Origin: Flavobacteriaceae bacterium
GTDB lineage: Bacteria > Bacteroidota > Bacteroidia > Flavobacteriales > Flavobacteriaceae
DNA length: 40,574 nucleotides
Assembly: GCA_022425945.1 (NCBI GenBank)
Contig: JAKMEK010000045.1
Location: 1-40,574, forward strand
Direction: 5' to 3'
A program made the position numbers and the translations under genes. This document shows positions 2,514-4,027 of this stretch, piece after piece (position 1 is the stretch's first letter; each line of letters starts with the position of its first letter). The notes beneath the pieces are model-generated. The model searched no databases, was not told the origin of the DNA, and saw nothing but the letters and a program-made list of their open reading frames with translations.

Positions 2514-2551
2514 GAGGTATAGAGTGTTTATTAAAAGTACGAGAAAAATAA

Positions 2552-2577
2552 AAAAGCAGACCCATCGGTCTGCTTTT
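2552..2577 (-). terminator. Rho-independent terminator after the micro-gene
   Basis: A perfect 11-bp stem (AAAAGCAGACC at 2552-2562 against GGTCTGCTTTT at 2567-2577) with a 4-base loop. Read leftward it is followed by a T-rich run (TTTTTTATTTTTC). It lies 25 bases downstream of the micro-ORF stop and about 40 bases upstream of the oxygenase start, so it either ends the micro-gene transcript or acts as an attenuator for the oxygenase operon. Confidence 0.8.
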
Positions 2578-2602
2578 ATGTTAAAATAGATAAGGAGTAG
2601 GA

Positions 2603-2665
2603 TTAAGAAGCCTTGATATAAGGCGGCTTTTGTCCGTTACTCCCCAAATGTTGTTTATAAGACAT
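2603..2665 (-). CDS. 20-residue micro-ORF with strong Shine-Dalgarno
   Basis: A short ORF, ATG at 2665 to TAA at 2603, encoding the 20-residue peptide MSYKQHLGSNGQKPPYIKAS. It is basic, polar, lacks a hydrophobic segment and has no run of one amino acid that would mark a classic attenuation leader. The case for translation rests on the context: AAAGGAGGTG at 2670-2679 with 6 bases between AGGAGG and ATG, which is an almost ideal Shine-Dalgarno sequence, while neighbouring genes have none. A promoter box lies 63 bases upstream and a terminator 25 bases downstream, so it can stand as an independent transcription unit. I do not recognise the peptide. It could be a functional small protein, a leader peptide, or part of a structured regulatory RNA. 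Confidence 0.6.
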   Translation of the reverse strand: MSYKQHLGSNGQKPPYIKAS

Positions 2666-2669
2666 AAGA

Positions 2670-2679
2670 CACCTCCTTT
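2670..2679 (-). promoter_or_regulatory. Shine-Dalgarno of the micro-ORF
   Basis: Read leftward the sequence is AAAGGAGGTG, 4 bases from the ATG at 2665 (6 bases from AGGAGG). It is complementary to most of the 16S rRNA anti-Shine-Dalgarno tail. In Bacteroidota that tail is known to be held by ribosomal proteins bS21, bS18 and bS6, so such sequences are rare and rpsU of Flavobacteriales is a known exception. Confidence 0.75.
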
Positions 2680-2697
2680 CTACATTAAGTTAAACAT

Positions 2698-2713
2698 CAC
2701 TGTTGTCACAGTG
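2698..2713 (-). repeat. Hairpin in the 5' leader of the micro-gene
   Basis: A perfect 6-bp inverted repeat, CACTGT (2698-2703) and ACAGTG (2708-2713), separated by 4 bases. It lies just downstream of the predicted transcription start and could shield the 5' end or be part of a structured leader; it could also be a small operator. Confidence 0.5.
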
Positions 2714-2727
2714 CGAACTGCTCTTCA

Positions 2728-2735
2728 CAAATTTA
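2728..2735 (-). promoter_or_regulatory. Promoter -7 box of the micro-gene
   Basis: On the minus strand the box reads TAAATTTG, a full match to the Bacteroidota TAnnTTTG -7 consensus. Transcription would start near 2720, giving a leader of about 55 bases before the ATG at 2665. No clear TTG -33 element is visible at the usual spacing. Confidence 0.55.
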
Positions 2736-2758: not shown

Positions 2759-4027
2759 CTATTTAACGATTTTTTTGAGGGTCAGTCCTTGCACCAAAAT
2801 AGTAAACAATACGACCGCATAGGTCAGAAATAAAATCAGTGATTTTCCATCCCCGAGTGTGTCCGGTAAGTTTAGCGCTAATGCAATACTCAATCCACCA
2901 CGAAGGCCACCCCAAGTAATGATTAGGGCAGTTTTGGGTTCAAACTTTTTGCGTAACGACAATAAACTAATGGGAACGGTAACGCCAATCCAACGAGAAA
3001 AAACGACCCAAATAACCACAAAGAATGAGAGAATAAAAAAGCTACTTTGTACTTCTTTAAAGAGAGGGATAATTTCAATTCCAATTAGAATGAATAGAAT
3101 AGCGTTAAGGGTTTCATCGATCAAATGCCAAAATTTGTACACATAGTCTCCCATGGCTTTTTGTACACCTTCTTCTACATCATCTGTGTCGATATTGCGG
3201 TTTAGAAAAAGCCCCATTACGACTATCCCAAGAACGGCCGAAAAATGGAAATAGTGGCAAATTAACGGGAGGAGTAAAACCATCGACAATGTCACCAACA
3301 CCTCCAGCTCTACATGTTCGTTTTCAATGTATTTTAAGAGTTTAAGACCCAAGTATCCCATGAGAGCACCCAAGGCAATTCCACCAATGACTTCAGTCAC
3401 AAATAAGACACCAACACTGGCCGCAGTAACATTTTCTACACCTTCTACTTTGATGCTCAAAAGGGTCAAGAAGACCACTACGCCAATTCCATCGTTAAAC
3501 AGCGACTCTCCTGCGATTCGCGTTTCCGTGATGGATGAAAGGTTCATTTTTTTGACCATTGCTAAAACAGCAATGGGATCAGTTGGGGCGATTAGCGACC
3601 CGAAAAGCAAGCAATCTACATAGGTAAGCCCATAAGAGCTCATCCCGAGAAAGGGTTGTTGAACAAGCCAGTAAAGTCCGCTTCCAACGGCAAAGGTCGA
3701 GAAGAGAACGCCAAAGCTAGCCAAGAACAAGATGGTTGTTTTGTCCTTGAGTAATTCATGAACATTTACGCCGATTGCACCAGCAAAAAGCAAAAAGGGA
3801 AGCATTACGTTAACAAGCAATTCGCTGAAATCAAATGTTTGCGTTAAGGCCGTTGCTTTATCCAGAAAAGGAGGGTAAAGCGTTCCAACCCCCAAAATGA
3901 TAAACGAAAGAACCAAGGCTTGAATCATTAGCCCGATGGTTAGCGGAAGTTTTAAAATACGAAGGTTTATAAGGGAAAAGGCTGATGCGATGACCAGCAA
4001 AACAGTAGAAATTTCGAGAACGTGCAT
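2759..4027 (-). CDS. Sodium (cation):proton antiporter, CPA1/NhaP type
   Basis: 422 residues, polytopic inner-membrane protein with about 12 hydrophobic helices. The CPA1 family signatures are present: LLFGSLIAPTDPIAVLAMVK (about residues 140-159) and AGESLFNDGIGVVVFLTLL (about 168-186), the latter carrying the ND pair of the ion-binding site, and the late motif WGGLRGGLSIALAL (about 371-384). It exchanges Na+ or another monovalent cation for protons, helping salt and pH homeostasis, which fits a marine flavobacterium. It lacks the long cytoplasmic tail of eukaryotic or NhaP2-type members, so it is a compact version. The start ATG at 4027 is 38 bases after the ribE stop. A short palindrome GTATCAAGATAC lies at 4041-4052 upstream. 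Confidence 0.92.
   Translation of the reverse strand: MHVLEISTVLLVIASAFSLINLRILKLPLTIGLMIQALVLSFIILGVGTLYPPFLDKATALTQTFDFSELLVNVMLPFLLFAGAIGVNVHELLKDKTTILFLASFGVLFSTFAVGSGLYWLVQQPFLGMSSYGLTYVDCLLFGSLIAPTDPIAVLAMVKKMNLSSITETRIAGESLFNDGIGVVVFLTLLSIKVEGVENVTAASVGVLFVTEVIGGIALGALMGYLGLKLLKYIENEHVELEVLVTLSMVLLLPLICHYFHFSAVLGIVVMGLFLNRNIDTDDVEEGVQKAMGDYVYKFWHLIDETLNAILFILIGIEIIPLFKEVQSSFFILSFFVVIWVVFSRWIGVTVPISLLSLRKKFEPKTALIITWGGLRGGLSIALALNLPDTLGDGKSLILFLTYAVVLFTILVQGLTLKKIVK

Follow-up and report, generated by a model that had tools for sequence, protein, structure and literature searches.

Why should a flavobacterium keep an almost ideal Shine-Dalgarno (SD) sequence in front of an open-reading frame (ORF) of only 20 codons? 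In the Bacteroidia the anti-Shine-Dalgarno (ASD) of complete ribosomes is described as hidden in a bS21/bS18/bS6 pocket, and depletion or mutation of bS21 raises the translation of strong-SD reporters but not of others (PMC9976891). The same source reports that F. johnsoniae rpsU is autoregulated via bS21-lacking ribosomes and an extended SD, that Y54A raises strong-SD reporters, and that wild-type ribosomes form unusually stable 70S initiation complexes on rpsU mRNA (PMC9976891). From a screen of all protein-coding genes in 200 Flavobacteriales it concluded that SD-dependent control is limited to rpsU, as SD hits were rarer than mock hits and rpsU was the typical single outlier (PMC9976891); what the earlier note took as its premise on Flavobacteriales rpsU agrees with this account. 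The window analysed here, a stretch of 40,574 nucleotides, is part of a 1.83-Mb draft genome (85.7% complete) of Candidatus Arcticimaribacter, a marine genus placed in the NS5 marine group (PMC9122927).

Direct reading of the window sequence gives a self-contained micro-gene unit of ~190 bp on the minus strand (2550-2735). The unit and its flanks are laid out as follows, the promoter box being one that we take to be a -7 box by its fit to the Bacteroidetes promoter consensus:

2759-4027: Na+/H+ exchanger gene (PF00999), flanking the unit
2728-2735, minus strand: putative promoter -7 box TAAATTTG, of the Bacteroidetes type TAnnTTTG
2698-2713, minus strand: 5' hairpin CACTGT-GACA-ACAGTG, from direct reading and two-sided pair changes
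2669-2681, minus strand: extended Shine-Dalgarno AGAAAGGAGGTGT, able to pair over 13 nt with the 16S 3' tail ACACCUCCUUUCU
2670-2679, minus strand: the AAAGGAGGTG core inside AGAAAGGAGGTGT, from direct reading
2603-2665, minus strand: 20-codon ORF MSYKQHLGSNGQKPPYIKAS and stop, with the ATG at 2665 and the stop at 2603-2605
2587-2596, minus strand: 3' element TCCTTATCTA just past the stop, with UAGAAAGGA in the SD as its complement, one bulge aside
2550-2573, minus strand: intrinsic terminator GCAGACC-GATG-GGTCTGC plus T6 (stem 2556-2573), from direct reading
1569-2513: 2OG-Fe(II) oxygenase gene (PF14226/PF03171), flanking the unit on the other side

The promoter box, hairpin leader, SD, 20-codon ORF and terminator listed in the earlier note were all re-read in the sequence, and its near-ideal SD was borne out, the complementarity to 16S extending over 13 nt and so exceeding AAAGGAGGTG. 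Beyond that list, we found the conserved TCCTTATCTA directly past the stop codon. The region 2541-2720 (minus strand) folds at -50.1 kcal/mol, compared with -34.2 kcal/mol for shuffles (z = -4.6, 0/200 shuffles as good).

A search with the peptide alone found a match in 9 of 19 genomes of the genus, its own included, and in 199 family genomes returned its own match and two chance-level matches (E ~0.7). With a covariance model built on nine units (R1), the unit was found in 17 of the 19 genus genomes and in 13 of 299 family genomes, counting its own in both cases; kept whole in those 17, and with its own promoter and terminator, it stands alone as the earlier note had proposed. A second model built on 28 units (R2), applied to 397 family genomes, had matches in 37 at E <= 0.01, 17 of them strong (E <= 8.7e-11) and 20 weak (E 5.9e-4 to 0.0077), the strong matches belonging to nine genera, the window's and eight more, with genomes of 1.3-2.2 Mb. 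Among 395 genomes sampled from the order 11 were matched by R2, with the window's own the sole clear unit and the other ten weak (E 9.9e-4 to 0.0086). These larger R1 and R2 searches of the family and order ran under stricter filters, which lose some weak matches. The weak R2 matches were rejected as members, since nearly all of the 19 viewed were plain terminators and none combined the hairpin motif with an SD.

A pattern scan of named genomes, which required GACAAYAG, ARAGGAGG and an ATG 4-6 nt behind, matched at least 118 stretches. Among the pattern matches listed, R2 confirms 90, 87 near full length and three cut at the stretch end; the window and these 87 make up the 88 units studied below. 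In the 87, the letters and spacing required by the pattern are partly conserved through hit selection, from which the wider 13-nt match is exempt. Record labels of the confirmed units read Flavobacteriaceae, Flavobacteriales, Flavobacteriia/Flavobacteria, Bacteroidetes and Candidatus Arcticimaribacter, and three carry the submitter labels Crocinitomicaceae or Cryomorphaceae. Viral contigs gave five pattern matches, none of which matched R2 at E 0.001, leaving phage carriage unsupported.

The unit is most often found beside the same gene: its upstream neighbour is the exchanger cluster in 63 of 88 loci and a riboflavin-synthase-like gene (by eye) in seven, the remaining loci having other upstream genes or none called. 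The micro-gene is thus inherited mainly in place, yet is not tied to one neighbour. It does not behave as a transcription attenuator or leader peptide, as it has its own terminator and the downstream gene varies by clade. In G001 (a single 2.03-Mb contig) and G013 the exchanger orthologue is retained (73% and 72% identity, respectively), with no unit adjoining it (R2, filters off) and other sequence there instead, and with no unit elsewhere (R1, E 0.1); being absent from these two genomes, the unit is dispensable. At both loci (L293 in G001, L291 in G013) the oxygenase is also missing beside the exchanger, and the next gene is probably an ion channel (by eye). Of the 85 units with enough upstream sequence, 66 have a promoter box TAnnTTTG no more than 60 nt before the GACAA of the 5' hairpin and 78 have the looser TAnnTTT there, and the distance from the start of the box to GACAA is 26-29 nt in 64 of 67 occurrences.

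Two side observations concern variant units. One draft (UBA11891) holds two micro-gene types on two contigs (L219 and L223), reflecting either a mixed bin or two copies. Seven units (L169, L190, L210, L215, L227, L247 and L249) encode a divergent peptide type (MSI.KNSK...) and have other neighbours, six of the seven with common flanking gene clusters; three carry the 3' element CACTCCTTTCTAA, which resembles the 16S tail more closely than the common 3' element does.

No Rfam family reaches its gathering score in the window, the best match at 2300-2900 scoring 28.3 bits against a threshold of 58.7, and five family peptides have no Pfam or NCBIfam match at E 1. A literature search of titles and abstract openings found no description of the unit, in line with the suggestion that it may be undescribed. 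We conclude that it is a real, conserved gene family, missing from the libraries searched. ORFs of 20 codons are as a rule left unannotated, and the micro-gene was for this reason presumably absent from the published 200-genome screen.

What sets the unit apart is the strength of its SD. The 16S tail GGAACACCTCCTTTCTAG was read in five of the 19 genus genomes (8 copies), with no copy in the window's own draft; all SD energies, from duplexfold and not free_scan, use this tail as inferred from genus members and assumed for other genera. AGAAAGGAGGTGT forms 13 consecutive base pairs with ACACCUCCUUUCU, next to a start codon whose use is suggested by the coding constraint described below, at -21.8 kcal/mol, compared with -17.6 kcal/mol for rpsU of the same genome on the same tail. 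All 88 units lie at or below -17.1 kcal/mol (median -21.8), a level of about -17 kcal/mol that only 3 of 22,111 ATGs elsewhere in the same stretches attain. Similarly, among the 29 units found by R1, 28 are at or below -17.1 kcal/mol and one, L040 (G289), is at -14.6, so that every unit in both sets pairs with 16S beyond -13 kcal/mol. The gathering pattern required ARAGGAGG, and for 87 units only the extension beyond this core is therefore independent. The GGAGG-ATG spacing is 5-6 nt in 88/88 units, where the pattern allowed 4-6, and likewise 5-6 nt in the 28 units of alignment A3 (L040 left out), which were found without the pattern.

The motif AGARAGGAGGT occurs twice in the 1.83-Mb draft, once in the micro-gene and once 8 nt before the rpsU ATG. 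A reversed control pattern also occurs twice, and in other genus genomes AGARAGGAGGT has 1-5 sites, with the reversed pattern present at a similar frequency. Nothing can be concluded from the counts alone; the telling point is the location of the two sites, not their number. By eye, none of the 19 other genus sites viewed is built like the micro-gene: one belongs to rpsU and six lie inside a frame open across the whole stretch, and some genus sites are the 16S tail on the opposite strand. Judged from sequence, the micro-gene is a second extended-SD gene in Flavobacteriales beside rpsU.

Several lines of evidence point to translation of the ORF. Of the 88 units, 83 have an ORF of 19-21 codons and five a longer one, and none falls below 19; four units (L150, L152, L155 and L146) have lost the stop, and their reading frame continues through the 3' element to 25-26 codons. 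For the peptide consensus and the substitution tests seven of the 88 units were dropped (N, or an ORF above 21 codons). The remainder share M-[SF] (78/81), Y in third position (61/81), L at alignment column 8 (70/81) and P at column 17 (70/81), and most end in L, F or I (76/81). On a tree built for 80 distinct units, kappa values of 1-4 give nonsynonymous/synonymous ratios of 0.53-0.77, and the first codons give 0.88; the ratio alone is weak evidence because the +1 control frame also gives 0.75 (+2, 1.8). Changes to stop number 0 in frame, compared with 17 (+1) and 20 (+2), a count which used only rows with 19-21-codon ORFs and is to be taken together with the ORF-length counts. Stronger coding evidence than the ratio comes from the column-shuffle test: in a set of 51 distinct ORFs of 20 codons, differing codons have a mean BLOSUM score of 0.79, compared with -0.07 (sd 0.35) for shuffled columns; 4/200 column shuffles and 1/200 within-codon shuffles reach the observed score. 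The earlier note had named a lack of conservation, or synonymous and nonsynonymous changes at equal rates, as grounds for giving up the gene; when these comparisons were run, ORF and SD proved to be kept and nonsynonymous changes to fall below expectation. The ORF is therefore probably translated, with its frame and length under selection and its residues moderately so. A purely non-coding RNA, suggested by the near-invariance of the leader and 3' parts, is weakened by this upkeep of the reading frame.

On balance, we favour the reading that this is a micro-gene for a ~20-residue peptide, whose exceptionally long SD-ASD helix would make its mRNA a second client, beside rpsU, of ASD-free ribosomes, chiefly those lacking bS21. 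As the ASD is hidden in complete ribosomes, such an mRNA should be served by ribosomes in which it is free. That bS21-lacking ribosomes would translate it preferentially, as the earlier note proposed, is compatible with what is known of rpsU biochemistry, from whose published behaviour we extend the idea to the micro-gene, and if it holds, the output of peptide would reflect how many 30S subunits are incomplete or damaged. A further role of the peptide in trans, in ribosome assembly or hibernation, would be a guess.

The RNA itself is also conserved in structure. Within A3, two-sided changes occur at three of six pairs of the 5' hairpin (97% of cells paired), at four of seven terminator stem pairs (100% paired) and at one of ten pairs of the helix between the SD and the 3' element (92% paired). 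The whole structure is 95.9% paired over these 28 sequences, a figure that falls to 89% with shuffled partners and to 41-57% when the structure is slid along. The covariation score and the number of two-sided cells were above all 500 shuffles, the number of pairs with a two-sided change was matched by 19/500, and further pair types in the same alignment did not rise above shuffles (436/500). A hairpin inside the ORF is predicted in nine units of the window's clade. The terminator loop CGATGG, present in 86 of 88 units and in 0/31 other terminators of the same stretches, was considered as a special site and dropped: ordinary flavobacterial terminators carry it, and the model used to confirm the members includes it, so we make no claim for the loop. 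L127 and L131 are ordinary terminators of other Flavobacteriaceae with CGATGG, and others are similar, which suggests a family-wide terminator style.

The 3' element reads exactly TCCTTATCTA in 61 of the 88 units. In the form [TC]C[CT]T[TC] it stands 1-10 nt past the stop in 82, at 3 or 4 nt in 59. Pairing of the SD with its own 3' element averages -10.8 kcal/mol over 86 units, compared with -9.5 kcal/mol for swapped partners (0/5000 permutations as low), and -9.7 versus -8.0 kcal/mol in 15 representatives (1/5000), four of which go in the opposite direction; these partner-swap permutations leave some relatedness between units. The duplex of SD and linker beats shuffled linkers (<=10/200 as good) in 58 of 85 units. 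RNAfold, by contrast, speaks against control of SD accessibility by the element: the SD core has an unpaired fraction of 0.27 with the native and 0.26 with the shuffled linker, and the native linker lowers it in just 37 of the 85 units. A fold-back of the element on the SD is thus a plausible but unproven prediction, and self-masking of the SD by it has mixed support. As a weaker inference, TCCTTATCTA might fold back on the SD and keep the message shut unless a free ASD competes, and a terminating ribosome would then cover TCCTTATCTA, so that the SD stays open.

The same features could mean that the ~165-nt RNA is the effector, a translation-gated dual-function RNA in which translation of the ORF would cover or expose TCCTTATCTA or the hairpins, and these would act on other RNAs or on a protein. 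Such a role would explain why the leader and the 3' parts vary hardly more than the ORF, or even less, why the element keeps its place just past the stop in 82/88 units and co-varies with the SD, and why the ORF is nearly fixed in length with its residues drifting. However, the residues are under some constraint, and in the four units that have lost the stop the ORF passes straight through the element, and we consider this explanation unlikely.

Returning to the reading of a second client of bS21-lacking ribosomes, bS21 is present in 19/19 genus genomes, and the genus rpsU leaders have an AGGAGG-type extended SD in 17/17 (L044 and L057 left out). Among the micro-gene genomes of other genera, rpsU was found in 14 of 15. 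Its SD is strong (-17.7 to -20.6 kcal/mol) in G038, G154, G156, G195, G202, G289, G341, G343 and G368, is weak at -9.9 in G070, and has all but disappeared from G083 (-1.3), G099 (-1.5) and the two G307 copies (-2.2 and -1.5), in a comparison which leaves out G266 and in which the G307 draft is 7% contaminated. The published range for rpsU SDs, computed with another program than ours, is -14 to -21 kcal/mol (PMC9976891). The four carriers with a weak or lost rpsU SD span three genera and keep the micro-gene SD at -21.2 (G070), -17.6 (G083), -21.9 (G099) and -21.9 kcal/mol (G307), and the micro-gene SD is therefore maintained independently of that of rpsU. G289 shows the reverse trend, its micro-gene SD core AAAGGAAG being weakened (-14.6 kcal/mol) beside a strong rpsU SD (-17.7); this unit, L040, is possibly in decay.

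Residue 54 of bS21, assuming F. johnsoniae numbering, is Y in the window's genus and H in L279 (G099), L289 (the second copy of G307) and L288 (G083). These H54 copies have lost the extended rpsU SD in genomes which keep the micro-gene SD; the other rpsU copy of G307 (L283) has Y54 and is likewise without an extended SD. At ~20 residues the peptide is not bS21 itself, which excludes an autoregulatory loop of the rpsU kind. Mimicry of bS21, suggested by a likeness to LRxxRQxxP noted by eye, was rejected, as in 13 of 15 sampled units 21-287 of 300 shuffles were as good; the exceptions were L177 (1/300) and L176 (5/300).

A plainer possibility is an ordinary small-protein gene with a strong SD by happenstance, translated by all ribosomes and with no link to bS21. 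It would account for the gene's own promoter and terminator, and a long SD need not mean selectivity, since wild-type ribosomes too are very stable on rpsU mRNA (PMC9976891). We find it quite unlikely nonetheless, because so long a match is kept across nine genera, far beyond background, in an order where the published screen has SD hits below mock hits and rpsU as the typical lone outlier (PMC9976891). Very unlikely, in our assessment, is a decoy for the 16S tail, with the RNA holding ASD-free 30S subunits via the long helix and the peptide irrelevant. Perfect complementarity over 13 bp at -21.8 kcal/mol would suit a decoy, but the ATG is kept at 5-6 nt in 28/28 A3 sequences, there are no premature stops and there is a coding signal, and on general reasoning a decoy could work only if it were about as abundant as the free subunits. 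A type I toxin mRNA of the hok or AapA kind, in which the 3' end would mask the SD, is scarcely credible, for despite the SD-complementary 3' element, short ORF and own terminator, the peptides are polar by eye without a membrane-spanning stretch and the R1 search of the genus gave one match per genome.

The micro-gene as a second client of ASD-free ribosomes is the reading we retain. In genera g66 and g82 rpsU itself has dropped the extended SD, and we suggest, tentatively and with more doubt than confidence, that control by bS21-lacking ribosomes has been extended from rpsU to the micro-gene, in some genera (g66, g82) apparently transferred to it, with the peptide reporting or acting on incomplete 30S subunits.

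The closest known counterpart is rpsU, with which the micro-gene shares an SD-ASD helix of 9-13 consecutive base pairs, beyond -13 kcal/mol and directly before the start codon (PMC9976891), both being found in organisms otherwise nearly SD-free. Unlike rpsU, it codes for a ~20-residue peptide and not for bS21, and is a stand-alone micro-transcript with a conserved hairpin, an SD-complementary 3' element and a terminator. Its 16S match is also longer than that of rpsU in the same genome (-21.8 versus -17.6 kcal/mol). SgrS/SgrT is a dual-function small RNA with an internal small ORF, and resembles the unit as a short independent transcript combining a structured RNA with a micro-ORF; the micro-gene differs in that its ORF lies behind an extreme SD in an SD-poor lineage. 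The type I toxin mRNAs hok and AapA have a 5'-3' fold-back, of which the complementarity between the 3' element and the SD is reminiscent, but the micro-gene peptide is polar (by eye) and its fold-back is unsupported by equilibrium folding.

The bS21-lacking ribosome of F. johnsoniae is a well-documented specialized ribosome among bacteria, concluded to serve rpsU alone (PMC9976891). If a second, conserved gene matches 16S over an even greater length, this would show that the bS21 pathway has further outputs, and suggests that annotation-limited screens of protein-coding genes can miss extended-SD micro-genes. At ~190 bp, the unit would offer a compact test system for this specialized-ribosome pathway.
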